Part shown: positions 4,341-28,418 of the stretch, one piece after another | Layout of the letters: each line of letters opens with the position of its first letter | Numbering within the stretch: position 1 is the first letter of the stretch | Program-made: the position numbers and the translations under genes | Notes under the pieces: generated by a model | The model's database searches: none | What the model saw: only the letters and a program-made list of their open reading frames with translations | Told to the model about the DNA's origin: nothing | Source of the DNA: Jannaschia maritima | GTDB lineage: Bacteria > Pseudomonadota > Alphaproteobacteria > Rhodobacterales > Rhodobacteraceae | Assembly: GCF_030973515.1 (NCBI RefSeq) | Contig: NZ_JARGZA010000016.1 | Coordinates: 1-64,000, forward strand | Direction of reading: 5' to 3' | Length of the DNA: 64,000 bases

Positions 4341-5569
4341 ACCGGATCGTGCATCTGGGCTTGGGGGCGTTCCACCGCGCGCACGGGGCGCATTACGTCC
4401 ACCGGGCGAACGCCGCGACGGGGACGGGCTGGCGCATCCACGGCGTTTCGTTCCGATCGGCGGGCGTGCGCGACGCGCTGGCCGCCGATGGCTGGCGCTA
4501 TGTGCTGGAGGTCGCGGATGCCGACGGGCGGCGGCCGGAGGTCGTGGACGTCCTGGACGGCGTCACCGTGCTGCCGGAGAAGCCGGACGCCCTGCGCGGC
4601 CTGTTGGCGGACCCGGCCGTGTCCCTGGTCACCCTGACCGTGACCGAGAAGGGATACCACCTGCGCGGGAACGGCCGGGCGGACCTGGACGCGCTGGCGG
4701 AGGACGTGGCCGCGCTGCGGGACGGGCGGCCGGGGCGCACGGTACCCGGCGCGCTTTTGGACGCCCTGCGCCACCGCGACGCGCCGCTGACGGTCCTGTC
4801 CTGCGACAACCTGCCGGACAACGGGGCGGCGCTGCGCGGCGTGCTGCTGTCGCTGGCGGACGCGGCGGGGGTGGAGCGGGGCGTCGTGACCCGACACGCG
4901 TATCCGTCCTCCATGGTGGACCGCATCACGCCCGCGGCCGACGACGCCCTGCGCGACCGGATGCGCGCGGCGGGCCTGCCCCACGCCGCGCCCGTCGCGA
5001 CGGAGGCGTTCACCGAATGGGTGGTGGAGGATCGCTTCGCGGGCCCGATGCCCGACATCGCCACGGCGGGCGCGCGGATCGTGCCGGACGTCGCCCCCCA
5101 CGAGATGCGCAAGCTGCGGATGCTGAACGGCGCGCATTCCACGCTGGCCTATGCCGGGTTGAACGCGGGCCACGCCTTCGTCCACGAGGCGGTCGCCGAC
5201 CCCGACCTGCGCGCCGTGGCCCGCGCCGTGATGGCCGAGGCCGCGGCCACCCTTCCGCAGGCCGTGCAGGGCGATGCGCCGGCCTATGCCGACGCGCTGA
5301 TCGAGCGGTTCGAGAACCCCCATCTGGCCCACCGGCTGGATCAGATCGCCATCGACGGGTCGCGCAAGCTGCCCATCCGCATCCTGGGCACGCGGCGGGA
5401 CCACGACGGCCCCACGCCCGCCTGCGACCGCGCCCTGCGGGAATGGACCGCCTGGCTGGACGCGACCTTCGCCGCCGGCGGGACCCCCGACGATCCCGCC
5501 GCGGACGTCCTGCGGGCGGGCCGGGCGGCGGGCCACGACGCCGAGCGGCTTCTGGAGGACGCGGCATGA
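4337..5569 (+). CDS. uxuB: Mannitol dehydrogenase family protein, probable fructuronate reductase
   Basis: NAD-dependent polyol dehydrogenase (410 aa) expected to reduce fructuronate to mannonate (or tagaturonate to altronate) between the isomerase before it and the mannonate dehydratase after it. It starts with GTG overlapping the previous stop by four bases. Visible motifs are the N-terminal nucleotide-binding G-L-G-A-F-H-R-A-H (residues 8-16), TVTEKGYHL, SCDNLPDNG and the catalytic K-x3-N-x2-H region in KLRMLNGAHS. The protein is about 70 residues shorter than E. coli UxuB, largely because it begins directly at the Rossmann motif. Mannonate is favoured over altronate because uxuA, not uxaA, follows. 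Confidence 0.9.
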   Translation: MNRIVHLGLGAFHRAHGAHYVHRANAATGTGWRIHGVSFRSAGVRDALAADGWRYVLEVADADGRRPEVVDVLDGVTVLPEKPDALRGLLADPAVSLVTLTVTEKGYHLRGNGRADLDALAEDVAALRDGRPGRTVPGALLDALRHRDAPLTVLSCDNLPDNGAALRGVLLSLADAAGVERGVVTRHAYPSSMVDRITPAADDALRDRMRAAGLPHAAPVATEAFTEWVVEDRFAGPMPDIATAGARIVPDVAPHEMRKLRMLNGAHSTLAYAGLNAGHAFVHEAVADPDLRAVARAVMAEAAATLPQAVQGDAPAYADALIERFENPHLAHRLDQIAIDGSRKLPIRILGTRRDHDGPTPACDRALREWTAWLDATFAAGGTPDDPAADVLRAGRAAGHDAERLLEDAA

Positions 5570-6777
5570 GGGCCACTTGGCGCTGGTTCGGGCCACAGGA
5601 CACGGTTCCCGTGGACTGGATGATGCAGGCGGGCGTCGAGGGCGTCGTCAGCGCGCTGCACCACGTCCCCTATGGCGCGGCGTGGACGCCCGACGAGATC
5701 GCCAAGCGCCAGGCCGAGATCGCGACGATGCGCGACGGCGGCCCGTCCGGCCTGGCCTGGGAGGTGGTGGAGAGCCTGCCGGTGTCAGAGGACGTCAAGA
5801 CGCAGACGGGCGACTGGCGCGCGCATTTGGACGCCTATCGCAGCAGCCTGGAGGCCCTGGCGGCGGCGGGGATCCGGGTCGTGTGTTACAACTTCATGCC
5901 CGTGCTCGACTGGACGCGGACGGATCTGGCCTGGCGCCTGCCCCACGGCGGCACGGCGATGCGGTTCGACGCCGTGGACTTCGCGGCCTTCGACATCCAC
6001 ATCCTGGGCCGCCCCGGCGCGGCGGACGGCCTGCCGGAGGACGTCGTGGAGGCCGCCGGGCGCCGCCACGCCGCCATGGACGACCCCGCGAAGGAGCGCC
6101 TGGCCGCGAACCTGGTCATGGGCCTGCCCGGCGGTCAGGCGGGCCTGACGCTGGACGAGCTGTGCGACCACCTGGCGACCTATGCCGCCATACCGGAGGA
6201 CCGTCTGCGCCGTCATTTGGCCGACTTCCTGGCGGAGGTCGTGCCCACCGCCGAACGACTGGGACTGCGGATGTGTTGCCACCCCGACGACCCGCCCTGG
6301 CCGCTGCTGGGCCTGCCGCGGATCGCGTCGACGGAAGCCGACTACGTGTCCCTTACGGCGGCGGTGGACAGCCCGGCCAATGGCGTGACGCTGTGTTCCG
6401 GCGCGCTGGGGCCGCGAACGGACAACGACCTGCCCGGCATGATGCGGCGGCTGGGGCGCAAGGTGCATTTCCTGCACCTGCGCAACGTCGCGCGCGAGGG
6501 CGATGCCGTGACGGGGGGCTCGTTCCACGAGGCGGATCACCTGGCCGGAGCCACCGACATGGCCGCCCTGGTCGCCGCCGTCCTGGCGGAGGAGGACCGG
6601 CGGAACGCGGAGGGACGCGCGGACGCGGAGATCCCGTTCCGCCCCGACCATGGCCAGGACCTGATGGACGACGCCGCGCGCGGCGGTCAGCCGGGATATC
6701 CTGCGGTGGGGCGCCTGAAGGGGCTGGCGGAACTGCGGGGGGTCGTCGCGGGCCTGCGGCACGGGGCGGGTCGGTAG
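5566..6777 (+). CDS. uxuA: Mannonate dehydratase
   Basis: Metal-dependent dehydratase (403 aa) converting D-mannonate to 2-keto-3-deoxygluconate, the end product of this uronate branch. It shows the UxuA-type opening (WRWFGPQD, then GVVSALHHVPYG), the metal-site stretch MCCHPDDPPWPLLGLPRI near residues 244-261, and the late HFLHLRNV and FRPDHG blocks. Length matches the family. Its ATG overlaps the preceding stop by four bases (ATGA). KDG kinase and aldolase are not in the window and must be encoded elsewhere. The gene converges on the reductive dehalogenase gene with only 37 bases between. Confidence 0.95.
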   Translation: MRATWRWFGPQDTVPVDWMMQAGVEGVVSALHHVPYGAAWTPDEIAKRQAEIATMRDGGPSGLAWEVVESLPVSEDVKTQTGDWRAHLDAYRSSLEALAAAGIRVVCYNFMPVLDWTRTDLAWRLPHGGTAMRFDAVDFAAFDIHILGRPGAADGLPEDVVEAAGRRHAAMDDPAKERLAANLVMGLPGGQAGLTLDELCDHLATYAAIPEDRLRRHLADFLAEVVPTAERLGLRMCCHPDDPPWPLLGLPRIASTEADYVSLTAAVDSPANGVTLCSGALGPRTDNDLPGMMRRLGRKVHFLHLRNVAREGDAVTGGSFHEADHLAGATDMAALVAAVLAEEDRRNAEGRADAEIPFRPDHGQDLMDDAARGGQPGYPAVGRLKGLAELRGVVAGLRHGAGR

Positions 6778-6814
6778 AGGACCGCACGGCCCCGCGCGCG
6801 GCGCGCGCGCACGG

Positions 6815-9800
6815 CTAGAGCGCCACCTCCACCACGCCGCCCGCCTGCGCGGCCCGGCTGCGGCACAGGATCATGGACGTCTCCCGCTCCGCCTGCGACA
6901 GCACGTGGTCTCGGTGGTCGACCGCGCCCGCGACCACCCCGCACCGGCACACGCCGCACAGGCCGTCGCTGCATTTCAGGTCCACGGGCACCCCGGCCTC
7001 CTGCAACGCCTCCGCCGCCGAACGGTCGGCGGGCACCGCGACGTCTCGGCCGGTGCGGGCCAGGCGCAGGACGAAGGGATGCGATTCCCGCTCGGGCTCG
7101 TCCGGCACGGCGAAGAATTCCAGATGGCGCGCGTCCTCCGGATAGCCCTTCGCCTCCGCGGCCCGCATCGCGGCCTCCATGTAGGCCCCGCCCCCGCAGG
7201 CGTAGAGATGCGCGCCGGGGGCATGGGGCGGGATGGCGGCGTCCAGGTCGCAGCGCGTGCCCTCGTCGGTGACGTAGAGGCGGACGTGGTCGGCCCAGGG
7301 AAACGCGGCGAGGTCGTCCAGGAACCCCATGGCCCCCCGCGACCGCCCGGAATAATGCAGCGCGAAGGGCGTGCCGCGCCGGTGCAGGGCGTGGCCCATC
7401 GCGATCAGCGGCGTGATGCCGATGCCCCCGCCCATCAGCGTCACCCGCGTGGCGTCCGGGACCAGGGGGAAGTGGTTCGCGGGCGGGGCGGCGAAGACGC
7501 GGCGGCCCGGCGCGAAGATGCGGTGCAGGAGCGCCGATCCGCCCCGGCCCCCGTCCTCCCGCAGGACGCCGATCTGATAGGTCGTCCGGTCCGCCGGGTC
7601 GCCCGACATCGAATAGGGACGCAGGTATTCGGGGGCCACCACCACGTCCAGATGCGCGCCCGCCTCCCATGGCGGCAGGTCGGATCCGTCGGCAGCCCCG
7701 AGGTCGTACTTCGTGACGCCGTCGGCCATCGGCGTGGCGGCGCGCACCACGAGCGACAGGACGGGGCTGTCCGCGGCGGCCGCATAGAGGTGGTCGGTGG
7801 GCGCCTCGCCCCGATCCAGCCGGGCGCGGTATTCCGCGGCCGACGGCATCGCGCGATGGGCGGCGATCCCGGCCTCCCGGTCCATGGGCGCGGGATAGGG
7901 ATGGGGGTGGGGCGCCAGATGGGCGGGATAGACGGCCATCGTCTGATCCCGTGCATCGAGGGTCAGGTCCGGCCGCAGATCGCGGGCGTTCACGGGGTCC
8001 GGCGTGGGACGGTACGCGCCGCCGTCCTCGGACAGGGCGATGTCCCACCACCACTTCTTCGCGGGATTGAGGCCGCCGTTGCCCGCCGCGTCGTCCAGCT
8101 TCGCCAGGACGGGCGCCAGGCTGGGCGCGTTCATCGCGGCCCAGCGGAAGGGACGTTCCTTGAACACGCCTTCGAGGTTCCAGGGACAGGTCTTCATGCA
8201 GCGTCCGCACATCGCCCCGCCCTTCGTGGTGATGCGGTAGGTCGCGCATTTCTGGCTGTCGGACTTCCAGATCTCGTAGCCGTTGAACATGGTCTTCGGC
8301 CCGGCCGTGATCGCCCCGGATGGGCATTCGCGCGCGCACTTGTTGCACCCCTCGCAGAAGCGCTGGAGCCCGAAGTCGATCGGCCGGTCGTGCGCCACCG
8401 GCATGTCGGTCGTCACGACACCGGACTTCAGGCGCGGCCCCAGGAAGGGGTTCAGGATGACCTCGCCGATGCGCGACACCTCCCCCAGGCCGGACAGCAG
8501 CAGGAGGGGCGGCTGGAGCACCTCCCCGTCCATGACGGTGTGGGCCTTGGCCGAATGGCCCAAACGTCGGATCTGTGCGGCCACCACGCCGCCCAGCAGG
8601 CTGAACCGCAGATAGGCGCGCATGGACTGGGCCACGCTGATCCAGTCGTCGCCCGATGCCCCCTCCATCGTCTCGTAGCCCTGGTCCACCACCATGCTGA
8701 TCGCGTGACCGTGGGGCGGGTCGATCGGGTCGCCCGCGGCGTCGTGGGAATACCACGCCCAGTCCGGGCAGCGGGAGATCCCGACCGCGTCGATCCCCAG
8801 GAAGTAGGACGCGGCCTTGACCAGGTCGGCAGCGTCCCGTGGCCCGGGGGCCGTCCGGTCCGCCGCGGGCGTGCCGTCCTGGAACGGCACGAGCGCGCCC
8901 AGGGCACGCCGCTGGGCCGCCGCCGTGGGGGCCTTGCGGATGTGATGGCCGCCCTTCATCGCGTCCTGCACCCGCTTGCCCATGTCGCCGAACTGCCCGC
9001 GTGCGAACAGGTCGGCGCGCTTGGGCACGCGGGGGACGCGCGGCTCGTCGATATAGGTCGTCGGCGCGTCCACGCGGCGCAGCGTCTCGAACGGGTGGGG
9101 ACCGTCGCGGAAGTCGCGCGCGGCGAACGGGTCCACCGTGCCGGCCCGCACCCCCGTGCCGACGCCCAGCGTCCAACGCCAGTCGAAGGCGGCCCGGGAC
9201 CGGTCGGGCGCCAGGGGGCGGTCGGGCGCCAGCGGGCAGGTCGTGGTGATCGCGGCCAGGGCATAATCGTGCCCAAGATGGGGATGCCGCAGGTCGGCAT
9301 GGACCAGCCCCGCGGCGACGGCCAGGACGTTCAGGTCCACCTCCGCGTCGGACATGGTATGCGCGCGGGCGGGATGCCCCAGGAGGCGCAGGTAGTTGGC
9401 CAGCACGACCGCGTTCTCGGCGGCCAGCAGCGCGGACCGATGCATGCGCGCGCCGCGGATCCAGGCGGCGCCGGGTTCGTCCGCGCGGGGCTCGCGCGGG
9501 TGGTGGACGAGGACGATCAGCGCGTGGTCGTGGTCCGCGATGCCGCCCGGGGGCGCGGCCAGCCCTTCGCGCAGGTCCGCCATGATCGCGTCGATGCCGG
9601 CGGCCAAGGACTTGACCGGACGGTCCCGCAGATCCGCCGCCAGGCGCGCCACGTCCGCGTTGCGGTGGGGCGTGGCGAGGCGCGCGGCGTCGGGCAGGCG
9701 GCAGACGCCCATGCCCGTGGCGTCGTTGAAGTGCCCGAACGCCTTGAGGTGGTTCGCGCGCGCGACCGGGTCGTCCGGGATCTCGGCGGAGGCGGGGTTG

Positions 9801-10003
9801 ACGGGTCCGTCGCGGATGGCGTCCAGCACGGCGGCATGCTCGGCCATCGCGTGGACGATGGAGGCGGGATCGTCCGCCTCGTACCGCAGGGGCGGACGGG
9901 GCGGCACGTCCGCCAGGTCGACCGCGTCCGTGCGGGCCAGACGCTCCACCGGCAGGGGGCCCATGTGGACGGGCCGGTCCGCGTTCGACAGAAGGCGTCG
10001 CAT
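6815..10003 (-). CDS. Self-sufficient cobalamin-dependent reductive dehalogenase (RdhA fused to PDR-type reductase)
   Basis: A 1062-aa soluble protein with no Tat or other signal peptide. The RdhA part spans about 1-660 and carries two [4Fe-4S] motifs: C550/C553/C556/C560 and C586/C599/C602/C606. A phthalate-dioxygenase-reductase-like module follows (about 745-1062): flavin motif R795-x-Y797-S798, NAD(P)-binding GGGIGIT at 858-864, and a plant-type [2Fe-2S] site C1011/C1016/C1019/C1047. This is the layout of the catabolic, oxygen-tolerant enzymes BhbA and NpRdhA, which remove halogen from halogenated phenols using NAD(P)H. Residues 181-268 and 454-545 look like an internal duplication; Lys486 and Tyr418 are candidates for the catalytic pair. 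QueG is excluded by the size and reductase module. The start lies five bases after the metal-permease stop, suggesting cotranscription. Substrate unknown. Confidence 0.88.
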   Translation of the reverse strand: MRRLLSNADRPVHMGPLPVERLARTDAVDLADVPPRPPLRYEADDPASIVHAMAEHAAVLDAIRDGPVNPASAEIPDDPVARANHLKAFGHFNDATGMGVCRLPDAARLATPHRNADVARLAADLRDRPVKSLAAGIDAIMADLREGLAAPPGGIADHDHALIVLVHHPREPRADEPGAAWIRGARMHRSALLAAENAVVLANYLRLLGHPARAHTMSDAEVDLNVLAVAAGLVHADLRHPHLGHDYALAAITTTCPLAPDRPLAPDRSRAAFDWRWTLGVGTGVRAGTVDPFAARDFRDGPHPFETLRRVDAPTTYIDEPRVPRVPKRADLFARGQFGDMGKRVQDAMKGGHHIRKAPTAAAQRRALGALVPFQDGTPAADRTAPGPRDAADLVKAASYFLGIDAVGISRCPDWAWYSHDAAGDPIDPPHGHAISMVVDQGYETMEGASGDDWISVAQSMRAYLRFSLLGGVVAAQIRRLGHSAKAHTVMDGEVLQPPLLLLSGLGEVSRIGEVILNPFLGPRLKSGVVTTDMPVAHDRPIDFGLQRFCEGCNKCARECPSGAITAGPKTMFNGYEIWKSDSQKCATYRITTKGGAMCGRCMKTCPWNLEGVFKERPFRWAAMNAPSLAPVLAKLDDAAGNGGLNPAKKWWWDIALSEDGGAYRPTPDPVNARDLRPDLTLDARDQTMAVYPAHLAPHPHPYPAPMDREAGIAAHRAMPSAAEYRARLDRGEAPTDHLYAAAADSPVLSLVVRAATPMADGVTKYDLGAADGSDLPPWEAGAHLDVVVAPEYLRPYSMSGDPADRTTYQIGVLREDGGRGGSALLHRIFAPGRRVFAAPPANHFPLVPDATRVTLMGGGIGITPLIAMGHALHRRGTPFALHYSGRSRGAMGFLDDLAAFPWADHVRLYVTDEGTRCDLDAAIPPHAPGAHLYACGGGAYMEAAMRAAEAKGYPEDARHLEFFAVPDEPERESHPFVLRLARTGRDVAVPADRSAAEALQEAGVPVDLKCSDGLCGVCRCGVVAGAVDHRDHVLSQAERETSMILCRSRAAQAGGVVEVAL

Positions 10004-19914: not shown

Positions 19915-20202
19915 ATGGACCCGACCCGTCACGCGACGCTGCGGATCGCCGGCGCGGTGGGCGATCCCGCCTTTCCACCCTGGATCCGCATGCAGGCCAC
20001 GCGCCGCGGCCTGACCGGCGTCGCGGTGGAGGCGGCCAACGACGGACTGACCGTGCGCGCGGCGGGAGCGGCGGCGATGCTGGAATCCCTGGCGCTGGTC
20101 TGCGCCCTGGGCCCGAGGGAGGTCGCCGTGGACGACGTGGACTTGCAATTCGATAGGGTCGGTGCTTCGGGCGCCGACGGCGCCGAGATGCCCGAAGATT
20201 AG
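19915..20202 (+). CDS. Acylphosphatase-like small protein, catalytic residues apparently lost
   Basis: A 95-aa protein with the length and overall pattern of acylphosphatase (an R-I-x-G opening strand, W-I-R-x-x-A helix, L-T-G, then a strand and helix ending in G-P). In acylphosphatases the first loop reads G-x-V-Q-G-V-G-F-R, with the arginine holding the phosphate; here it is replaced by GAVGDPAFPPWIR, and the catalytic asparagine after the LTG turn is not in its usual place. Enzymatic activity is therefore doubtful. It diverges from the FAH gene across a 107-base gap and precedes the Rieske operon on the same strand. Confidence 0.6.
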   Translation: MDPTRHATLRIAGAVGDPAFPPWIRMQATRRGLTGVAVEAANDGLTVRAAGAAAMLESLALVCALGPREVAVDDVDLQFDRVGASGADGAEMPED

Positions 20203-20234: not shown

Positions 20235-20255
20235 ATGCATGTTGAATCCATGCAT
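20235..20255. promoter_or_regulatory. Perfect inverted repeat upstream of the Rieske/purine operon
   Basis: ATGCATG (20235-20241), a seven-base spacer and CATGCAT (20249-20255) form a perfect inverted repeat 49 bases upstream of the Rieske protein start. Its size and position fit an operator for a dimeric repressor. No regulator gene is adjacent, so the cognate factor is unknown. Confidence 0.5.
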
Positions 20256-20304
20256 TCTCGTGGTGTGATGACGCGGGCACGCCGCCCCGGGGGAAGACGC
20301 GACG

Positions 20305-20898
20305 ATGAGATGGACCGCCGTCATGCTGGCCGCCGATCTGCCCCCCGGGGCGGCCGCGGGCACGACGGTCGACGGCACCGATTTGGCGGTCTGGCGCAGC
20401 GCATCCGGTGCGGTGCATGCCTGGACGGACCGCTGCCCCCATCGCGGGATGCGCCTGTCTCACGGCTTCGTGCGCGGCGAAACCCTGGCCTGCATCTATC
20501 ACGGATGGCGCTATGGCACCGACGGGGCGTGCCGGCACATCCCCGCGCATCCGTCGCTGACCCCGCCGAAGACCATCGCCGCCACGGACCACGCCTGCCG
20601 GGAGGCGGGCGGTCTGATCTGGGTCGGCGGCACGGGCGAGCCGCCCGTGATTGAGCACCCTCATCCCGTCCGAAGCCTGGAAGTCGCGGCCCCGCCCGAG
20701 GCGGTGGCCCGGGCCTTCGGCGCGGCGGAGGGGGTGCGCGTCCTCGACCTCGACGGACGCGCCGCCACGCTGGCCTTGCAACCGGTCGCGAGCGCCGCGA
20801 CCCGCATCCACGCCCTGTGCGCCCGGCCTGACGACCGCCTCGCCCTGTCCCGCGCGCTCGATGCCCGCCGGGCCCGCGCCGAAGGAGACGCCGCATGA
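20305..20898 (+). CDS. Stand-alone Rieske [2Fe-2S] protein with unusual C-terminal extension
   Basis: A 197-aa soluble protein. Residues 1-115 are a complete oxygenase-type Rieske domain with C44-P-H46 and C63-x-x-H66 ligands. The remaining about 80 residues do not form a full oxygenase catalytic domain: there is no non-haem iron motif, only a short segment (LALQPVASAATRIHAL) reminiscent of the end of such a domain. The next gene encodes a catalytic domain without Rieske ligands and overlaps by four bases (ATGA), so the two products probably form one split oxygenase in which this protein delivers electrons. No reductase is encoded in the operon. Confidence 0.85.
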   Translation: MRWTAVMLAADLPPGAAAGTTVDGTDLAVWRSASGAVHAWTDRCPHRGMRLSHGFVRGETLACIYHGWRYGTDGACRHIPAHPSLTPPKTIAATDHACREAGGLIWVGGTGEPPVIEHPHPVRSLEVAAPPEAVARAFGAAEGVRVLDLDGRAATLALQPVASAATRIHALCARPDDRLALSRALDARRARAEGDAA

Positions 20899-21743
20899 CG
20901 ATCGCCCCCGCCGACCGCGCCGCCTGGTACCCCGCCGCCCCCTCGTCCGCCGTGACGGAAGGACACGCGACCCCGACCGTCCTTCTGGGCGAGGGCGTCG
21001 CCCTGTTCCGCACGGACGGCGTCGCCGCGGCGACCGGCGCGGACAGGCGCGCGCTGGCCGTGACCGAACGCTACGACCATGTCTGGGTGTGTCCCGGCAC
21101 GCCGGACCGCGCGCTGTTCGCGATTCCCGAGGCCGCCATGCCGGGCCGCCGGGCGGTGCCGTGCGGGTCGATCCACGTTCGCTGCTCGCCGCTTCGGGCG
21201 GTCGAGAACTTCCTCGATATCGCGCATTTTCCGTTCATCCACACCGGCATCCTGGGCGAGGAGCCGCATACGGAGGTGAACCGCTACGACGTGAGGATCG
21301 ACGACGACCTGGACGAGGTCTGGGCGCGGAACATCACCTTCCACCAGCCGCAGGCCTCCGTTTCCGCCGAAGGGGCGCTGGACGTGCGCTACGAGTACCG
21401 GGTGCCCGCGCCGACGACCGCGATCCTGTACAAGACCTGCCCCGCGCGGCCCGCGGAATGGGACGTCATCGCGATCTTCGTCCAGCCCGTGTCGGAGGAG
21501 ACGTGCATCGCCCATCCCTGGATGACGATGTTCGACGACGCGACCCCCCACGCCGACATGGTCGCCTTCCAGCAGACGATCTTCCTGCAGGACCGGTCGA
21601 TCCTGGAGAACCAGATCCCCGCCCGTCTGCCGCTGGACCCGGGCATGGAGGTGCCGACCCAGGCCGATCTGACCTCCATCGCGTATCGCCGCTGGCTGAA
21701 GCGGCGGGGGCACGCCCACGGCGCGCAACTGGTGGCGGCGTGA
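20895..21743 (+). CDS. Rieske-type oxygenase catalytic subunit lacking the Rieske cluster
   Basis: A 282-aa protein with the mononuclear iron site of Rieske oxygenases: N105-F-L-D108-I-A-H111-F-P-F-I-H116, with Asp233 in QDRSILENQ as likely third ligand; Asp108 is the residue that normally links to a Rieske histidine. The N-terminus still has strands of a Rieske fold (WYPAAPSS, then VALFRTDG, then YDHVWVCPG), but the CxH and CxxH loops are gone. This is how NdmC, the catalytic subunit of caffeine/7-methylxanthine N7-demethylase, is built; NdmC takes electrons from a Rieske domain on another polypeptide. The neighbouring Rieske, GST and deaminase genes reinforce the parallel. Hydroxylation or N/O-demethylation of a purine-like compound is inferred. 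Confidence 0.8.
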   Translation: MTIAPADRAAWYPAAPSSAVTEGHATPTVLLGEGVALFRTDGVAAATGADRRALAVTERYDHVWVCPGTPDRALFAIPEAAMPGRRAVPCGSIHVRCSPLRAVENFLDIAHFPFIHTGILGEEPHTEVNRYDVRIDDDLDEVWARNITFHQPQASVSAEGALDVRYEYRVPAPTTAILYKTCPARPAEWDVIAIFVQPVSEETCIAHPWMTMFDDATPHADMVAFQQTIFLQDRSILENQIPARLPLDPGMEVPTQADLTSIAYRRWLKRRGHAHGAQLVAA

Positions 21744-22432
21744 CGCCGGTCCTGCACGACTGGGTGCTGGACGCGGGCTGCTACCGCGTGCGGCTGCTGG
21801 CGTCGCTGCTGGGCGCGGATCTGGACCTGCGGTCGGTCGACGTCCACCCGGGCGATGCGCTGCGGAGCGAGGCGTTCCTGCTGCTGAACCCGGCGGGCAC
21901 CTTGCCGGTGATGGAGGTGGACGGGTCGGTCCTGACGGATGGGCCCGCCTGCCTGACTTGGCTGGCCGCGACGCACGACGCCGGGTGGCTGGGCGATCCC
22001 TCGCCCGGTGGACGGGCCGCGCTGCAGCACTGGCTGGGCGTGTCGCACGAGCTGGCCGCGACCCTGGGCGCCGCGCGCCCGATGGACATGCTGGGCGCCT
22101 CCGGCGATCCCCGACCGCTGCGTCTGGCGGGTCGGGGCCATCTGCGCCGCCTGGATGCCGCGCTGGCCCGAGGGCGGTGGGACGGGCGCGCCTTCCTGCT
22201 GGGCGACCGGCCCACGATCGCCGACGTGGCCTGCTTTCCGGACGTGGCCCTGGCGGGCGATTGCGGCATGTCGCTGGACCCCTACCCTTCGATCCGGTTG
22301 TGGATGCGGGCGGTCCGCGGCCTGCCCGGCTTCGTCCCCATGCCGGGCATCCATCCCCTGCACGAGGCGAGCCCATTCCCGGAGGACGCCCGCGGGTCGG
22401 GTGCGGACGCGGCCCGGGGGACGGCGGCGTGA
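21740..22432 (+). CDS. Glutathione S-transferase-fold protein
   Basis: A 230-aa GST-fold protein starting with GTG (GTGA overlap with the oxygenase stop). The thioredoxin-like N-terminal domain is recognisable (DAGCYRVRLLASLLG, then NPAGTLPVMEVDG and LTDGPACLTWLA), and the helical C-terminal domain ends with the GDRPTIADVACFPDVALAG block containing the N-capping box aspartate. The position of the usual catalytic Ser/Cys is held by the Asp-Ala-Gly-Cys14 segment. In the NdmCDE demethylase a GST-like protein (NdmE) bridges the catalytic and Rieske subunits; its place directly after the split oxygenase suggests the same role. A conventional detoxifying role cannot be excluded. Confidence 0.85.
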   Translation: MTPVLHDWVLDAGCYRVRLLASLLGADLDLRSVDVHPGDALRSEAFLLLNPAGTLPVMEVDGSVLTDGPACLTWLAATHDAGWLGDPSPGGRAALQHWLGVSHELAATLGAARPMDMLGASGDPRPLRLAGRGHLRRLDAALARGRWDGRAFLLGDRPTIADVACFPDVALAGDCGMSLDPYPSIRLWMRAVRGLPGFVPMPGIHPLHEASPFPEDARGSGADAARGTAA

Positions 22433-23817
22433 CCGCGTTCCTGCTGAAGGGCTGCGCGGCCATCGTGACGGCCCACGACGCGCCCGTCCTGCGCGACCAC
22501 GACCTGCTGACCGACGGCCCCGCGGTCGCGGCCATAGGCCCCGACCTGTCCGGCCCGGACCTTCCCCAGGACGCGCAGGTGATCGACGCGTCGGGGTGGT
22601 TCGTCTATCCGGGGCTGGTCAACACGCATCACCACTTCTTCCAGTGCTTCGTGCGCAACAGGGCCGAACTGGACTGGACCAAGCTGACCGTCCTGGAATG
22701 GCTGGACCGCATCTATCCGGTCTTCGGCCGCCTGACCGAGGACGCGTTCCACCATGCCAGCCTGTCCGCGATCGCGGAGCTTCTGAAGCACGGCTGCACC
22801 ACGGCCTTCGACCACCAGTACTGCTTCCCCCGGCATGCGGGCACCCGCATCGTCGACCGTCAGATCGAGGCGGCGGAGCGGTTCGGAATACGGATCCACA
22901 TAGGCCGCGGCGGCAACACCCTTCCCAAGTCGAAGGGCAGCACCATCCCCGACGCGATATTGGAGACGACGGACGCCTTCCTGTCCGACTGCGCCCGCCT
23001 GATCGACGCCTACCACGACCCCCACCCCTTCGCGATGCGCCAGATCGCGGTGGCACCCTGCCAGCCGGTGAACTGCTGGCGCGATACGTTTGTGGAATCC
23101 GTGGCGCTGGCCCGCGACCGCGGCGTGCGCCTGCACAGCCACGTGGGCGAGGGCGAATCGGAGGTGATGCGCCAGCGGACGGGCATGCGGACGGTGGAAT
23201 GGTGCGAGGACGTGGGCTTCGCCGGACCGGACACCTTCTATGCCCATTGTTGGGAGCTTTCGCGCGACGAGCTGGCGGCGATGGCCCGCACCGGCACGGG
23301 CGTGTCGCACTGCCCCGAACCCGTCTATCTGGTCGGCGCGGAGGTGACGGACATTCCCGCCATGCACGCGCTCGGCCTGACGGTGGGGCTGGGCGCGGAC
23401 GGGGCGGCGTCGAACGACAACTCCGACCTGATGCACTGCATCCATTCGGCGTACATGCTGCAATGCCTGGCCGCGGGACGCCGCGACGACCCGGTGCCGC
23501 ACCCGTCCGCCTTCCTGGGCCACGCCACGGCGGGCGGCGCCGCGCTGCTGGGCCGCGACGACATCGGGCGGCTGGGCCCCGGCCTGGCGGCCGACCTGTT
23601 CGCCCTGGACACCCGGCGGCTGGAATTCGCGGGCACGCGCCACGATCCCGTCAGCCTGATCCCCAAGGTCGGCGTCGGCCGCCCCGTCGACCTGACGATG
23701 GTCAACGGCCGGATCGTCTGGGACGGGACGCAGTTCCCCGGCCTGGACGAGGCCGCCATGCTGGCCGAGGCCGAGACCGTCCTCGACACGATCATCCCCC
23801 CCGGCACCACCATTTGA
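22429..23817 (+). CDS. Amidohydrolase, 8-oxoguanine/guanine deaminase-like
   Basis: Metal-dependent amidohydrolase (462 aa) of the TrzN/AtzA/8-oxoguanine-deaminase branch. It shows PGLVNTHHHFFQ with the H-x-H metal pair (His67, His69), HGCTTAFDHQYCF, the later HSHVGEGESE histidine, FYAHCWELS, and GLGADGAASNDNSDL with the metal-ligand aspartate. These fit 8-oxoguanine deaminase and related purine/triazine deaminases. GTG start with a GTGA overlap to the GST-like gene. With a purine-type ABC transporter immediately after it, its substrate is most likely an aminopurine such as guanine, 8-oxoguanine or a methylated derivative, acting before or after the oxygenase. Confidence 0.87.
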   Translation: MTAFLLKGCAAIVTAHDAPVLRDHDLLTDGPAVAAIGPDLSGPDLPQDAQVIDASGWFVYPGLVNTHHHFFQCFVRNRAELDWTKLTVLEWLDRIYPVFGRLTEDAFHHASLSAIAELLKHGCTTAFDHQYCFPRHAGTRIVDRQIEAAERFGIRIHIGRGGNTLPKSKGSTIPDAILETTDAFLSDCARLIDAYHDPHPFAMRQIAVAPCQPVNCWRDTFVESVALARDRGVRLHSHVGEGESEVMRQRTGMRTVEWCEDVGFAGPDTFYAHCWELSRDELAAMARTGTGVSHCPEPVYLVGAEVTDIPAMHALGLTVGLGADGAASNDNSDLMHCIHSAYMLQCLAAGRRDDPVPHPSAFLGHATAGGAALLGRDDIGRLGPGLAADLFALDTRRLEFAGTRHDPVSLIPKVGVGRPVDLTMVNGRIVWDGTQFPGLDEAAMLAEAETVLDTIIPPGTTI

Positions 23818-23828
23818 AGGAGAGACTC

Positions 23829-24905
23829 ATGAGGACCTTGAAGACGCTGGCCACCCTGGCCCTGTCGGCCGCGCTCGCGCTGCCCGCCGCCGCGCAGGAC
23901 GATACGCTGAAGGCCATGGTCATGCTGCCGTCGCCCGAAGGCGACGTCGGCTGGTCGTTCACGATGATCGAAAGCCTGCGCCGCGTGCAGGCCGAGTACG
24001 GCGACGCGATGGACCTGACCGTCATCACGCCGATCCCCGAAGGTCCGGACGCCGACCGGATCATGAACAACGCGGTCGCGGACGGGAACGAGTTCCTGGT
24101 CCTGGGCTCGTTCGGCTACATGAACGGCGGGATCCAACTGGCGAAGCGCAACCCCGACATCGATATCCTGCATGCGTCCGGCTATCTGACCGAGGACAAC
24201 TTCGCCCCCTTCGCTGCGAAGTACTGGCAGGGCACGTATCTGATGGGCATGGCCGCCGCATCGCTGACCGAATCGAAGAAGCTCGGCGTCGTCGGCGCCT
24301 TCGCCATCCCCGAGCTCATCACCTCGATCAACGCCTTCGCCCTGGGCGCGCGCGAGGTCGACCCCGAGATCGAGGTCTCGGTCGTCTGGGTGAACTCCTG
24401 GTTCGACCCCGCGGCCGAGCAGGACGCCGCCCGCGCGCTGCTGTCGCAGGGCGTCGATGTCCTGTTCTCGAACGCCCAGGACACGCCGTCGGTGGTGTCC
24501 CTGGCGGAGGAGGAGGGCGCGTACGTGTTCAACCTCAACTCCTCCATGAAGGCCTATGCGCCGTCGCGCTATCTGGGCGTGGTCGGCACGGACTGGTCCC
24601 CCTGGTTCGCCGAGAAGATCGCCGGGCACCTGGACGGCACCTTCGAGGGCGAGTTCGCCTGGCTGGGCTTCGGCGACGACGTCCTGTTCATGGCGGATTA
24701 CAGCGCGGACATCCCGGACGACGTCGCGGCCCTGATCGCCGAGCGGGAGGCCGCGATCCGATCGGGCGACTTCGACGTCTTCGGCGGGCCCCTGGTCGAT
24801 CAGTCGGGAACCGAACGGGTCGCTTCGGGCGCGTCCATGTCGGACCCCGAGATCCTGGGCATGGACTGGCACGTCGAGGGCGTGACCACGCCCCTGCCGA
24901 ACTGA
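23829..24905 (+). CDS. BMP-family ABC transporter substrate-binding protein
   Basis: Periplasmic binding protein (358 aa) of the BMP/PnrA/Med family, which bind nucleosides and purines. It starts 11 bases after the deaminase stop, behind AAGGAGAG, with a signal peptide ending at AAA-Q (about residue 22); there is no lipobox. The family pattern is visible: GDVGWSFTM near residue 38, the repeated strand-helix units, KKLGVVGAFAIPE around residue 155 and the YLGVVGTDWSPW segment near residue 258. Together with the double ATPase and two permeases it is a complete importer, and it ties the oxygenase/deaminase genes to purine-like substrates. Confidence 0.92.
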   Translation: MRTLKTLATLALSAALALPAAAQDDTLKAMVMLPSPEGDVGWSFTMIESLRRVQAEYGDAMDLTVITPIPEGPDADRIMNNAVADGNEFLVLGSFGYMNGGIQLAKRNPDIDILHASGYLTEDNFAPFAAKYWQGTYLMGMAAASLTESKKLGVVGAFAIPELITSINAFALGAREVDPEIEVSVVWVNSWFDPAAEQDAARALLSQGVDVLFSNAQDTPSVVSLAEEEGAYVFNLNSSMKAYAPSRYLGVVGTDWSPWFAEKIAGHLDGTFEGEFAWLGFGDDVLFMADYSADIPDDVAALIAEREAAIRSGDFDVFGGPLVDQSGTERVASGASMSDPEILGMDWHVEGVTTPLPN

Positions 24906-24913
24906 CCGGGGCC

Positions 24914-26407
24914 GTGCCCGCCCCCCTGCTCTCGCTGCACGGCGTGACCAAGCGGTACGGCCCGGTCCTGGCGAACGACGCCGTGGATCTCGACGTGGCC
25001 GCCGGGTCGATCCACGCCGTGCTGGGGGAGAACGGGGCGGGCAAGTCCACCCTGATGAAGCTGATCGCGGGGGTGGAGCGCCCCGATGCGGGTCGCATCG
25101 AATGGGACGGGGCACCGGTCGCCCCGTCCTCCCCGGCTCAGGCGCAGAGGATGGGCGTGGGCATCGTGTTCCAGCACTTCGCCCTCTTCGAGACGCTCAG
25201 CGTCGTGCAGAACGTGGCCTTGGTCATTCCGGGACGGCAGGCCGACCTGGCCCGCCGCATCCGGGACACCGGCGATCGCTTCGGCCTGCCCGTGAACCCC
25301 GACGCGATGGTCCACCGCCTGTCGGTGGGCGAACGCCAGCGGGTCGAGATCATCCGCTGCCTGATGCTGGACCCCCGCCTGCTGATCCTGGACGAGCCGA
25401 CATCGGTGCTGCCGCCCCAGGCGATCCCGCCGCTCTTCGACACGCTTCGCGGCATGCGGGACCGGGGGATGGCGCTGCTATTCATATCCCACAAGCTGGG
25501 CGAGATCCGCGACCTGTGCGACACCGCGACCATCCTGCGCGGCGGGCGGGTGGTGGACAGGGTCGATCCCCGGGACCGGACGCCCACCGAACTGGCGCAG
25601 GCCATGATCGGACGCGACATGCCGCCCCGCGTCCGGGCCGTGCCCCGCATGCCCGGAACCGTCCGCCTTTCGCTGGAGGGCGTGACCTGGGACAACCCCG
25701 ACCCGTTCGGCACGTCGCTGTCCGACGTCTCGCTCGGCGTGCGGTCGGGCGAGGTCGTGGGCATCGCGGGCATATCCGGCAACGGCCAGGCGGAGATGGC
25801 CGCGATCCTGTCGGGCGAGGTCACGCTGGATCGCGCGGACGCCGTGACGCTGATGGGCCGCCCCGCGGGCCGGACCGGGGCCGCGGACCGCCGCCGCGCG
25901 GGCCTGGCCTTCGTGCCGGAGGATCGGCTGGGTCGCGGTGCGGTCCCGGACATGTCGCTGTCGGACAACACGCTGCTGACGGCGCACGGCCACGGCCTGA
26001 CCTGGCGGGGCTTCCTGCGGCACGCGCGCGAACGGGCCATGACGTCCGCCATCATCGCCAACAACGACGTCCGCACCCCGTCGGCGGCGACGGAAGCGGG
26101 CGCGCTGTCGGGCGGCAACCTCCAGAAGTTCGTAATGGGGCGCGAGATCGCGCTGGCCCCCGACGTCCTGGTGGTGGCTCAGCCCACCTGGGGCGTGGAT
26201 GTCGCCGCCGCCGCCGCCATCCGCGCGCGCCTGATCGCGCTGCGCGACGCGGGCTGCGCCGTCCTGGTCATATCGGAGGAGATCGAGGAGCTGTTCGAGA
26301 TCTGCGACCGGATGCACGTCCTGCACCACGGGCGGCTGTCGCCGTCGCTGACCACCGCCGACGTGACGCCGACCGACGTGGGCCGCCACATGATCGGGGC
26401 GGCGTGA
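24914..26407 (+). CDS. Purine/nucleoside-type ABC transporter ATP-binding protein (two ABC domains)
   Basis: Tandem-ABC ATPase (497 aa), the form used by BMP-type nucleoside and by sugar importers. The first domain has a full Walker A (GENGAGKST), a signature-like SVGERQRVEIIRCL and Walker B LLILDEPTSVL. The second has the degenerate Walker A (GISGNGQAE) usual for this family, then LSGGNLQKFVMGREIA. It starts with GTG nine bases after the binding-protein stop and overlaps the first permease by one base (TGATG). Confidence 0.94.
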   Translation: MPAPLLSLHGVTKRYGPVLANDAVDLDVAAGSIHAVLGENGAGKSTLMKLIAGVERPDAGRIEWDGAPVAPSSPAQAQRMGVGIVFQHFALFETLSVVQNVALVIPGRQADLARRIRDTGDRFGLPVNPDAMVHRLSVGERQRVEIIRCLMLDPRLLILDEPTSVLPPQAIPPLFDTLRGMRDRGMALLFISHKLGEIRDLCDTATILRGGRVVDRVDPRDRTPTELAQAMIGRDMPPRVRAVPRMPGTVRLSLEGVTWDNPDPFGTSLSDVSLGVRSGEVVGIAGISGNGQAEMAAILSGEVTLDRADAVTLMGRPAGRTGAADRRRAGLAFVPEDRLGRGAVPDMSLSDNTLLTAHGHGLTWRGFLRHARERAMTSAIIANNDVRTPSAATEAGALSGGNLQKFVMGREIALAPDVLVVAQPTWGVDVAAAAAIRARLIALRDAGCAVLVISEEIEELFEICDRMHVLHHGRLSPSLTTADVTPTDVGRHMIGAA

Positions 26408-27552
26408 TGGTCCGGCTGATGCGGCGCGACCGCGCATCCCGCTCGGCCATGGTGGCCGCCCCGCTGCTGGCGCTGGGGGCCGCCGTCCTGGTCAGCCTGA
26501 TCCTGTTCGCCGCCCTGGGAAAGCCCGCGGGCGTGGCGCTGCACGCGTTGCTGATCCGACCCTTCGCGTCCTGGTATTCCTTCTCCGAGGTGCTGTTGAA
26601 GGCCGCGCCCCTGATGCTGATCGCGCAGGGTCTGGCCATCGGCTTCCGCGCCAACGTGTTCAACATCGGGGCCGAGGGGCAGTTCGTCATGGGCGCGGTG
26701 GCCGCCTCCGCGCTGCCGGTGCTGGGGGGCGATCCGTCGGGTCCGTGGGTGATGCCCCTGATGCTGGGGGCGGGCATGGCGGGGGGGCTGGCCTGGGCCG
26801 GGCTCGCGGCCTTCGCGCGGGACCGGTTCGGCGCGAGCGAGATCCTGGTCACCCTGATGCAGTCGCTGATCGCCGTGCAGGTCCTGAACTACCTGCTGCT
26901 GGGGCCATGGAAGGATCCGCGCGGCTTCAACTTCCCCGTCAGCGTGATGTTTCCCGACGCGGCCCTGCTGCCGATCCTGCTGCCCGGAACGCGGACAAAC
27001 GTGCTGCTGGTCTTCGCGCTGCTGGCCAGCGTGCTGGCCTGGGTCCTGATGCGGCATCGCCTGACCGGGTTCCAGTTGCTGGTGGGCGGCCTGGCGCCGG
27101 GGGCCGCGCGGTACGCGGGCATCGCGCCCCGGCGCGCCGTCTGGCTGTCGCTGGGGCTGGGCGGGCTGGCGGCGGGGCTGGCCGGCGCGGGCGAGGTGAT
27201 GGGCCCCCTGGGCCAGCTGCAGCGATCGGTGGCGGCCGGCTATGGCTATGCGGCGATCGTGGTGGCCTATGTCGGCGGGCTGAACCCCCTGGGCATCGTG
27301 GTCGCCGCGGTCGCCATATCGGCCGTCTACATCGGCGGCGACGCCGCGACCGTCAGCGCGGGCCTGCCCGTCCCGGCGGTGGAGGTGTTCCAGGGTCTGC
27401 TGCTGGCCTTCTACCTGGTCGCCTTCGTCCTGGTCCGCTACCGCATCGCCCGGATGCCCGGCCCCGCGACCCGCGCCGCGACGCCGCGTCGCGGGGGCCG
27501 TCCGCGGACGTTCGACGGTCCGGTGCCGTCGGCGGCGGATGGCGGTCCGTGA
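26407..27552 (+). CDS. Purine/nucleoside-type ABC transporter permease 1
   Basis: Membrane permease (381 aa) of the branched-chain/nucleoside class with about nine helices and the typical GFRANVFNIGAEGQFVMGA segment near residue 85. The G-L-N-P-L-G-I-V stretch late in the protein is also characteristic. The C-terminal about 40 residues are hydrophilic and Arg/Pro-rich, longer than usual. It pairs with the next permease, which starts inside its stop codon (GTGA overlap). Confidence 0.92.
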   Translation: MVRLMRRDRASRSAMVAAPLLALGAAVLVSLILFAALGKPAGVALHALLIRPFASWYSFSEVLLKAAPLMLIAQGLAIGFRANVFNIGAEGQFVMGAVAASALPVLGGDPSGPWVMPLMLGAGMAGGLAWAGLAAFARDRFGASEILVTLMQSLIAVQVLNYLLLGPWKDPRGFNFPVSVMFPDAALLPILLPGTRTNVLLVFALLASVLAWVLMRHRLTGFQLLVGGLAPGAARYAGIAPRRAVWLSLGLGGLAAGLAGAGEVMGPLGQLQRSVAAGYGYAAIVVAYVGGLNPLGIVVAAVAISAVYIGGDAATVSAGLPVPAVEVFQGLLLAFYLVAFVLVRYRIARMPGPATRAATPRRGGRPRTFDGPVPSAADGGP

Positions 27553-28418
27553 CCATCCTGGCCTTCGTTTTCGCGGGCATCCTGGCCGCGTCGCTGCCGC
27601 TGCTGCTGGCCGCCCTGGGCGAGATGGTGGTGGAGAAGACGGGCCTTCTGAACCTGGGCATTGAGGGAATGATGGCCCTGGGCGCCGCGGTGGGCTTCGT
27701 CGCGGTCTATCTGACCGGCAGCCACGTCCTGGGCCTGGCGGGGGGCGCCCTGGCGGCGGCGCTGCTGTCGCTGGCCTTCGCGGGCATGGTCCTGGGGGCC
27801 CGCGCGAACCAGGTCGCGGCGGGGCTGGCCGTGGGCGTGCTGGGCCTGGGGCTGTCCGCGCTGTTCGGGGCATCCTACGAATCGTTCACGGTATCGGGCC
27901 TGCCGAAGCTGGCCGTGCCCGCCCTGTCGGATCTGCCCGTCCTCGGCGGGCTCTTCCGGCAGGACGTCCTGGTCTGGGCCGCGATCCCGGGCGTCGTCGT
28001 GCTGTGGTGGGTCCTGGAGCGCACGAAGGCGGGCTTGGTGATCCGCGCGGTGGGCGAGAACGCGGACGCCGCGCGGGCCATCGGATACGACGTGGTCCTG
28101 ATCCGCGCGGGCGCGGTGGCCTTCGGCGGCGCCATGGCGGGCCTGGGCGGCGCCTATGCCTCGACCGTCCTCACCCCGCTCTGGGCGGAAGGGATGATCG
28201 CGGGGCGGGGCTGGATCGCGCTGGCCCTGGTCGTGTTCGGGACCTGGCGGACGGGGCGCGTGACGCTGGGCGCGCTGCTGTTCGGGACGCTGGTGCTGGG
28301 CGGACTGGCCGCGCAGGCGGCCGGCGCGCGGGTGCCGTCGCAGCTCCTGGCCAGCTTGCCCTATCTCGTGACGATCGTCATGCTATGCATCCTGTCGGCG
28401 GGTCGCCGACGAGCCTGA
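27549..28418 (+). CDS. Purine/nucleoside-type ABC transporter permease 2
   Basis: Second permease (289 aa), shorter than its partner as is usual for this family, with eight or nine helices. It carries EKTGLLNLGIEGMMALGA near residue 30, the counterpart of the signature in permease 1, and LRERTKAG-like and VGENADAARAIGYDV segments forming the coupling helix region. GTG start overlapping the previous stop by four bases. It completes the BMP importer and probably the operon, though a membrane-protein gene overlaps its 3' end. Confidence 0.92.
   Translation: MTILAFVFAGILAASLPLLLAALGEMVVEKTGLLNLGIEGMMALGAAVGFVAVYLTGSHVLGLAGGALAAALLSLAFAGMVLGARANQVAAGLAVGVLGLGLSALFGASYESFTVSGLPKLAVPALSDLPVLGGLFRQDVLVWAAIPGVVVLWWVLERTKAGLVIRAVGENADAARAIGYDVVLIRAGAVAFGGAMAGLGGAYASTVLTPLWAEGMIAGRGWIALALVVFGTWRTGRVTLGALLFGTLVLGGLAAQAAGARVPSQLLASLPYLVTIVMLCILSAGRRRA

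Follow-up and report, generated by a model that had tools for sequence, protein, structure and literature searches.

A conserved operon joining a split Rieske oxygenase to a predicted N2,N2-dimethylguanine hydrolase and a purine importer in Jannaschia maritima

Gene content of the operon

The window analyzed here is a stretch of 64,000 nucleotides from Jannaschia maritima (assembly GCF_030973515.1, contig NZ_JARGZA010000016.1, positions 1-64,000 of the forward strand). On its + strand lies a series of intact genes that includes a stand-alone Rieske [2Fe-2S] protein of 197 aa that has a small domain at its C-terminus (20305..20898; Pfam Rieske, PF00355, 82.9 bits), followed by a Rieske-less, NdmC-like oxygenase catalytic subunit of 282 aa (20895..21743; VanA_C, PF19112, 83.1 bits) and a GST-fold protein of 230 aa in an NdmE-like position (21740..22432; GST_N_2, 37.1 bits, and GST_C_2, 34.6 bits, both above cut-off). 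Next is an amidohydrolase of 462 aa, predicted to be an NdmH-type N2,N2-dimethylguanine hydrolase (22429..23817; Amidohydro_1, 165.4 bits). The importer genes encode a BMP-type substrate-binding protein of 358 aa with a predicted AtzT-like guanine pocket (23829..24905; Bmp, 123.8 bits), an ABC transporter ATPase of 497 aa (24914..26407; ABC_tran, 150.5 bits) and two permeases of 381 and 289 aa (26407..27552 and 27549..28418; BPD_transp_2, 112.3 and 99.7 bits, respectively). From the Rieske gene onward, the spacings are -4, -4, -4, +11, +8, -1 and -4 nt. These data bear out the tight operon of eight genes that had been proposed from the DNA letters. Scanning the operon for promoters and terminators gave no site.

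The original prediction had placed the start at position 20235 and listed eight genes. Position 20235 belongs to an open reading frame in a different frame, the Rieske gene itself beginning at 20305, and a ninth gene, 102 nt upstream of the Rieske gene, had been overlooked. This gene (19915..20202, + strand) encodes a 95-aa protein that scores 24.3 bits against the acylphosphatase Pfam model (cut-off 22.5). Its predicted structure (pLDDT 84.9) has the order b-a-b-b-a-b, and its top Foldseek matches are acylphosphatases (E 3.2e-5, TM 0.75). The two catalytic columns, which in acylphosphatases are presumably occupied by Arg and Asn, contain neither residue in any of 80 aligned rows. The gene was present in 98 of the 108 loci searched and in none of the six loci with a fused Rieske protein, and this dead acylphosphatase-fold protein is a small conserved component that goes with the stand-alone Rieske form. 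In the open-licence literature we found no paper that joins an acylphosphatase with a Rieske oxygenase; other print may contain one.

A split oxygenase

The oxygenase is divided between one chain of 197 aa and another of 282 aa, and there is no full-length Rieske oxygenase chain. When the window proteins were aligned with those of 80 named loci, the Rieske ligands (C44, H46, C63 and H66) and the iron-site residues of the catalytic subunit (N105, D108, H111, H116 and D233) were identical in all 81 rows, and the C-x-H...C-x2-H motif occurred in 0 of the 81 catalytic subunits. A cluster-free catalytic subunit, a separate Rieske protein and a GST partner are all there, in support of the predicted NdmCDE-like split with no reductase fused to it. 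The system had also been called undescribed. This must be qualified: NdmH is already in the literature, as are NdmCDE-like clusters of unknown function, given in the available text of PMC4408171 (citing Summers 2013) for 18 organisms, mostly Sinorhizobium and Mesorhizobium.

No reductase is encoded in the operon. A VanB-like query had no match in three of nine operon genomes, and its matches in the genome of the window were limited to a DmmC-type reductase and one reductive-dehalogenase fusion; no dedicated reductase was identified in the genomes queried.

NdmC-like plasmid genes that adjoin Rieske-reductase fusions, and lie near purine genes, are 43-52% identical to the window subunit, depending on the span. 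A tree of catalytic subunits was built after reducing 117 hits to 58 and removing three near-duplicates, two of them from L045 and one from L058. A branch (94/67) has six fusion-type rows together on one side and the window row on the other, with deep support weak; the window clade stands apart from the fusion-type clade (81/34, likewise weak at depth). The tree does not support orthology of the window subunit with the fusion-type subunits, although its deep support is weak and some rows have long branches.

The hydrolase is probably of the NdmH type

The original prediction of a guanine/8-oxoguanine-deaminase-like enzyme stands insofar as the protein is a purine amidohydrolase. The 8-oxoguanine type was rejected: the best named NCBIfam model, 8-oxoguanine deaminase (NF006055), gives 384.9 bits, below its curated cut-off of 532, and the active-site residues differ. 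They match instead those of NdmH, an N2,N2-dimethylguanine hydrolase (ACS Catal 2026; PMC13054789). The residues listed there for poNdmH are Q74, W85, W93, Y98, Y133, N165, C213, Q214, N217, E243, H275, P300 and D326, and all 13 are present in the window hydrolase at a constant offset of -2. Counting that of the window, 81 of 82 operon hydrolases have the full set. For the Pleomorphomonas hydrolase, encoded in the same operon (L122), one ATG reproduces the published poNdmH numbering. At the C-Q-N-N positions (C211, Q212, N215 and N163 in the window protein; C213, Q214, N217 and N165 in NdmH), the window residues are unlike those of a homologue that passes the 8-oxoguanine deaminase cut-off and unlike those of aligned 8-oxoguanine deaminases.

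Genomic position agrees with this signature. Homologues of the hydrolase at E<=1e-60 were found in 90 of 398 genomes of a phylum sample, and 30 of their loci were fetched. All five loci with the signature have the hydrolase between the catalytic subunit/GST and BMP/ABC genes; none of the 25 loci without it does, and one of these (L177) has an adjacent catalytic subunit. Residues and numbering together argue strongly for an NdmH-type enzyme, a predicted N2,N2-dimethylguanine hydrolase.

The main text of PMC13054789 gives the physiological context of NdmH as "under investigation" and mentions no Rieske protein, operon or transporter. Within the open-licence literature, a dimethylguanine hydrolase was met in one paper only, and no paper was found that joins a Rieske protein with 8-oxoguanine deaminase or with dimethylguanine, other print being possible in both cases. 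Methylated guanine is a breakdown product of RNA. For NdmH, described in 2026, the operon offers a genomic setting that can be put to the test.

The importer has a probable guanine-type pocket

The nearest solved proteins of the binding protein are 3s99, in which a purine is modelled, and the guanine-binding AtzT. AtzT contacts guanine through Y45, S97, F98, E165, W194, N218 and N220. Five of these (S97, F98, E165, W194 and N218) are identical in all 81 binding proteins that adjoin an NdmH, and the other two are replaced in every row (Y45W and N220D), so that the ligand may differ from guanine. The pocket suggests that the importer takes up a guanine-type purine. The original view of a split oxygenase tied to a BMP-type importer and a purine amidohydrolase is supported, as is the modified purine at which it pointed.

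Conservation, variants and genomic partners

The 80 named loci are the best-scoring of at least 540 confirmed relatives, a sample biased to near relatives. Within it, 67 loci have the eight genes in the same order on one strand, and all 80 have the Rieske-catalytic-GST trio; the eight-gene order is also retained in each of the eight closest genomes of the window's order. Co-occurrence of the eight genes exceeds chance, and the expectation that they would be conserved together in relatives held. Many rhizobia and aquatic Rhodobacteraceae carry the nine genes in the same order. Over broader samples the catalytic subunit is sporadic. In the order it was found in 21 of 292 genomes (own genome counted, three of the 21 only at E ~1e-11) and in none of the eight other genomes of the genus listed in this sample. 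In the class, at E<=1e-40, it was found in 8 of 385 genomes, own included.

Some loci depart from this arrangement. Three that have the oxygenase and transporter but lack NdmH (L119, L126 and L137) carry, after the transporter genes, a guanine deaminase whose score exceeds the curated cut-off. Two others (L114 and L127) keep oxygenase and transporter but have no gene between GST and BMP, and a further two (L047 and L049), also with oxygenase and transporter, have no deaminase within the fetched stretch, the L049 genome having a guanine deaminase on another contig. These four loci contradict a deaminase in every transporter operon. In L109, L125, L131 and L134, the oxygenase genes are followed by unrelated genes.

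Xanthine dehydrogenase was above cut-off in 9/9 operon genomes and 8/8 control genomes. A dimethylamine monooxygenase operon is present in the genome of the window; with the DmmA family in three of the nine operon genomes (0/8 controls), a universal partnership with this enzyme is not supported.

Discussion

We think it probable that this operon imports methylated guanines and degrades them to xanthine, with the split oxygenase removing a methyl group from the ring. The BMP-type transporter would take up the methylated base, and the hydrolase would put oxygen at C2 in exchange for a dimethylamino group, which leaves as dimethylamine, or for an amino group, which leaves as ammonia. The oxygenase would demethylate one of the ring nitrogens, most likely N7 by analogy with NdmCDE, with the methyl group leaving as formaldehyde, and the resulting xanthine would be handled by xanthine dehydrogenase in the usual way. 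Within the oxygenase, the Rieske protein, a chain of its own, would hand electrons, coming from a reductase encoded elsewhere, to the cluster-free catalytic subunit, and the GST-fold and dead acylphosphatase-fold proteins may serve as assembly or bridging subunits. NdmH alone converts N2,N2-dimethylguanine to xanthine, so the operon itself gives no purpose for the oxygenase. A more specific version, which we offer only tentatively, is that a four-part oxygenase (Rieske protein, cluster-free catalytic subunit, GST and dead acylphosphatase fold) N-demethylates multiply methylated guanines, e.g., the 2,2,7-trimethylguanine of eukaryotic RNA caps, together with NdmH. The operon might then be a bacterial pathway for hypermethylated guanine derived from RNA and the physiological home of NdmH enzymes.

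Other readings appear less likely. The oxygenase might itself strip an N2-methyl group, converting N2-methylguanine to guanine, with the hydrolase deaminating the remainder, both enzymes then acting on the exocyclic nitrogen. The operons with guanine deaminase in place of NdmH would be consistent with an oxygenase that yields guanine. However, according to the available text of PMC13054789, NdmH releases dimethylamine directly and at a high rate, and related enzymes cleave -NHR too; in NdmH operons, an oxygenase that acts on this bond as well would therefore be redundant, and we regard this reading as unlikely. Somewhat less probable still is the original suggestion of purine uptake combined with an NdmCDE-like enzyme that demethylates caffeine-type methylxanthines at N7. 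The same split architecture with a GST partner speaks for it, as do the purine genes next to fusion-type relatives, but the 2-amino position, at which a hydrolase with NdmH residues acts, is absent from methylxanthines, the binding pocket resembles that of a guanine binder, and in the tree the catalytic subunit is not part of the fusion-type clade.

We give equally little weight to a molybdenum-independent ring hydroxylase of the HpxDE kind, which would convert, e.g., xanthine to urate after the hydrolase. HpxD, annotated as a subunit of a molybdenum cofactor-independent xanthine hydroxylase, is a distant relative of the catalytic subunit at ~33% identity, far below the identity to NdmC-like genes, and xanthine dehydrogenase is above cut-off in all 17 genomes, nine of which have the operon. 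Salvage or detoxification of 8-oxoguanine would account for the best named model of the hydrolase, but is very improbable: the protein falls short of the cut-off, while the L044 homologue reaches 583.3 bits, and its C-Q-N-N positions set it apart.

Relation to known systems

NdmCDE, the 7-methylxanthine N7-demethylase complex of Pseudomonas putida CBB5, shares with the window operon a cluster-free catalytic subunit, a Rieske domain on another chain and a GST-like partner (available text of PMC4408171). It differs in that its Rieske domain is fused to a reductase (NdmD). In the window operon the Rieske protein stands alone and no reductase is encoded, an acylphosphatase-fold gene is present, and the oxygenase is linked with NdmH and with a probable guanine-type importer. 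The CBB5 system is compared here by its published description. The N-demethylase architecture of caffeine breakdown is widespread among aquatic and plant-associated bacteria, where its surroundings point to guanine. SxtT and GxtA (SxtDIOX) are the nearest solved proteins for both oxygenase chains, and also for the Rieske-protein structure model (rmsd 6-7 A), but they are single full-length chains with an unrelated natural substrate. HpxD is, by annotation, likewise a Rieske oxygenase of purine catabolism, but is a full-length chain.

Among hydrolases, the Pleomorphomonas NdmH copy sits in the same type of operon as that of the window, whose hydrolase is a predicted NdmH. The atrazine plasmid pADP-1 encodes an AtzB-type protein 53% identical to the window hydrolase and an AtzT 35% identical to the window binding protein, both being unnamed in the sequence record and assigned by residues and numbering. 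AtzB has S-S-I-I where the window hydrolase has C-Q-N-N, and is thought to derive from NdmH enzymes. Since AtzB and AtzT both have relatives in the operon, it bears on the origin of the degradation pathway for the herbicide atrazine.

Gene content, order and distribution of the operon

All eight genes of the original prediction are present and undamaged on the + strand (20305-28418); neighbours overlap by 1-4 bases or are separated by no more than 11, and domain searches agreed with the gene types it proposed. A domain search added a ninth gene 102 nt upstream of the eight (19915-20202, + strand), whose small product matches acylphosphatase weakly, though above the cut-off.

The expectation that these genes would be conserved together in relatives was borne out. 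A pattern scan of named bacterial genomes yielded at least 587 stretches and at least 540 relatives; in the best 80 of 540, a sample skewed to near relatives, Rieske-catalytic subunit-GST was present throughout (80/80), and all eight genes occurred in order on one strand in 67, some of the other 13 ending at contig ends. These loci came chiefly from Rhizobium, Mesorhizobium and Rhodobacteraceae; a small number are from gammaproteobacterial bins. Among 292 sampled genomes of the order, the catalytic subunit was detected in 21 (own genome counted; three only at E about 1e-11) and in none of the eight other genomes of the same genus listed in that sample. The order Rieske-catalytic subunit-GST-hydrolase-BMP-ABC-permease-permease, on one strand, was seen by tblastn in 8/8 genomes with 59-63% identity matches. 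Relatives of the catalytic subunit also occurred in 261 plasmid records (Rhizobium 128, Sinorhizobium 65), 125 of them at 60-80% identity. In public annotation, the nine-gene order is present in R. etli CFN 42 p42c, an Agrobacterium plasmid and Sinorhizobium sp. B11, the first gene being annotated as acylphosphatase in two and as a hypothetical protein in one. Such a patchy distribution, together with a strongly kept gene order, would be expected of a catabolic operon moving between lineages. At the Agrobacterium plasmid locus L051 (2293-9497), the operon is immediately preceded by another BMP-type transporter, accompanied by amidase and amidohydrolase genes.

A predicted NdmH-type hydrolase

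The guanine/8-oxoguanine-deaminase-like identity first suggested for the hydrolase was not supported: its best NCBIfam match, 8-oxoguanine deaminase, reaches 384.9 bits where the cut-off is 532, and a homologue at locus L044 that passes this model (583.3 bits) differs from it at key positions. NdmH enzymes are described in a 2026 paper as converting N2,N2-dimethylguanine to xanthine and dimethylamine, with 13 residues named in the Pleomorphomonas oryzae enzyme (PMC13054789). All 13 are identical in the window hydrolase at a constant offset of exactly 2, and in the same operon of Pleomorphomonas sp. (L122) the hydrolase ATG gives the published numbering. The full set occurs in 81 of 82 operon-linked hydrolases, window counted; the L132 hydrolase, a shorter frame, deviates at one position.

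As a control, the hydrolase was searched against 398 genomes of the phylum. In 90 of these, homologues reached E<=1e-60, with identities of 71-100% in five genomes and 35-42% in the other 85. Thirty loci were checked residue by residue: five (own genome counted) carry the signature, all flanked by catalytic subunit, GST, BMP and ABC genes, and 25 lack it, 23 of these having M-C-S-S at the N-C-Q-N positions. Among the 25, the two-oxygenase cluster L177 has an adjoining catalytic subunit, and L157 and L180 have an ABC match.

Binding protein

Among solved structures, the binding protein is closest to 3s99, with a purine modelled, and to AtzT, which was found with bound guanine (KD about 110 nM; PMC6834077). 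We compared the seven AtzT residues contacting or sandwiching guanine with 81 binding proteins adjoining an NdmH. All 81 have S97, F98 (a backbone contact), E165, W194 and N218, and Y45W and N220D are likewise fixed; five of the seven residues are thus kept, so that by sequence comparison the ligand is likely guanine-like, with a possible shift in specificity.

Deaminases and proposed pathway

Three named loci with oxygenase and transporter genes and no NdmH (L119, L126 and L137) have a guanine deaminase after the transporter genes, assigned by coordinate conversion, that scores above the curated cut-off (416, 433.5 and 385.3 bits). At L041, L042, L044, L046 and L057, a guanine-deaminase-like gene adjoins a catalytic subunit; the two scored, those of L041 and L044, fall just below the cut-off (372.6 and 356.6 vs 375.4). 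What unites the loci that have a deaminase is conversion of a guanine-type base to xanthine. Xanthine dehydrogenase exceeds its cut-off in 17/17 genomes (nine with the operon, eight without), and therefore a xanthine hydroxylase is not needed. Since NdmH alone handles N2 methyl groups, the most economical assumption is that the oxygenase acts on a ring N-methyl; N7 would be favoured as the demethylated position only by analogy with NdmCDE. 7-Methylguanine and 2,2,7-trimethylguanine are RNA-derived and plausible natural substrates.

We weigh two readings. That the operon imports methylated guanines and degrades them to xanthine seems to us probable. That a four-part split oxygenase acts with NdmH on hypermethylated, RNA-derived guanine is a bolder and rather doubtful proposal. 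Confidence in both is slightly lowered because several oxygenase operons have no deaminase: none was found in the oxygenase operons of L114 and L127, or seen near the oxygenase in the L047, L049 and S. meliloti stretches.

Degradation of methylated guanines would be expected to release dimethylamine, and the window's genome has a dimethylamine monooxygenase operon that would serve it (contig C12, about 3800-7500), made up of a GcvT-like gene, a member of the DmmA family scoring over cut-off, a reductase and a PF11927 haem subunit. The DmmA family occurs in only 3/9 operon genomes and in 0/8 same-genus genomes without the operon. For candidate electron donors, a VanB-like reductase query matches 6/9 operon genomes, three of the six only as long frames that resemble a dehalogenase fusion frame of the window. 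The product of the latter (6815-10003, - strand; 1062 aa) matches a reductive-dehalogenase model (TIGR02486, 174.6 bits vs cut-off 160.35) and combines 4Fe-4S domains with a 2Fe-2S reductase region at its C-terminus, so that it appears to be a reductive dehalogenase complete in itself. In five other operon genomes, reductase matches fall in frames of comparable length, the match covering the reductase part.

Split oxygenase and small protein

The Rieske protein aligns to SxtT residues 11-119 and the catalytic subunit to residues 101-332 of GxtA and SxtT, which are related to each other; therefore one stretch is common to both chains. In the Rieske protein as modelled by AlphaFold (pLDDT 94.6), a C-terminal b-a-b-b-b-a domain follows the Rieske domain, and the model as a whole loosely resembles full-length Rieske oxygenases (rmsd 6-7 A). 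Cluster ligands are invariant in 81/81 Rieske proteins, and iron-site residues in 81/81 catalytic subunits, none of which has the Rieske cluster motif. We infer that both chains descend from a single ancestral oxygenase as diverged copies, the cluster being kept in one and the iron site in the other.

In the window GST (21740-22432), residues common in relatives are lost at positions typical of glutathione binding: position 11 is D (S in 80/81 rows), and positions 67 and 68 are D and G (E67 and S68, each in 69/81). L044, L046 and also L045 have two catalytic subunits with a single gene each for the Rieske, GST and acylphosphatase-fold proteins, in larger clusters with a guanine-deaminase-like gene and further amidohydrolases. 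L057 is partly alike; there, annotation shows a GMC oxidoreductase and two genes for thiamine-pyrophosphate enzymes, and the second catalytic subunit lies outside the fetched stretch.

A profile built from 12 seeds detected the small protein in 98 of 108 loci (78/80 named ones). In 97 of them its gene precedes the Rieske gene on the same strand, at a distance of about 0-298 nt, and in L049 it is at the opposite end of the operon. The profile did not find it in the six fusion loci (L048, L053-L056 and L058) or in L037, L059, L082 and L103. Its predicted structure matches acylphosphatases; at the columns that we take to be those of the catalytic Arg and Asn, neither residue occurs in any of 80 rows. 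On the simplest reading, its role in the form with a stand-alone Rieske protein would be structural or in assembly.

Comparison with known systems

In the fusion form, found in P. putida, K. pneumoniae, S. meliloti and Mesorhizobium plasmids, the Rieske domain lies on a chain of ~585 aa, read, from one aligned example, as a putative reductase fusion. These modules lie near purine genes, e.g., hpxO, guaD, and nucleobase symporters or BMP transporters; such clusters, without assigned function, had already been noted in 2013, as recounted in PMC4408171. In a catalytic-subunit tree of 55 rows, six fusion-linked subunits form one group (94/67) and guanine-deaminase-linked subunits a separate one (94/82); NdmH-operon subunits lie outside both, in a group with weak deep support (81/34).

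On the atrazine plasmid pADP-1 (L192, 42490-48737), a gene of the amidohydrolase family adjoins the AtzT transporter genes, an arrangement similar to that of the operon's transporter and hydrolase genes. The pADP-1 binding protein has the AtzT residues at the published numbers. A pADP-1 amidohydrolase, 53% identical to the window hydrolase, is taken for AtzB on the grounds of S, S, I and I at the four positions that read C-Q-N-N in the window hydrolase; AtzB is described as derived from an NdmH ancestor (PMC13054789).
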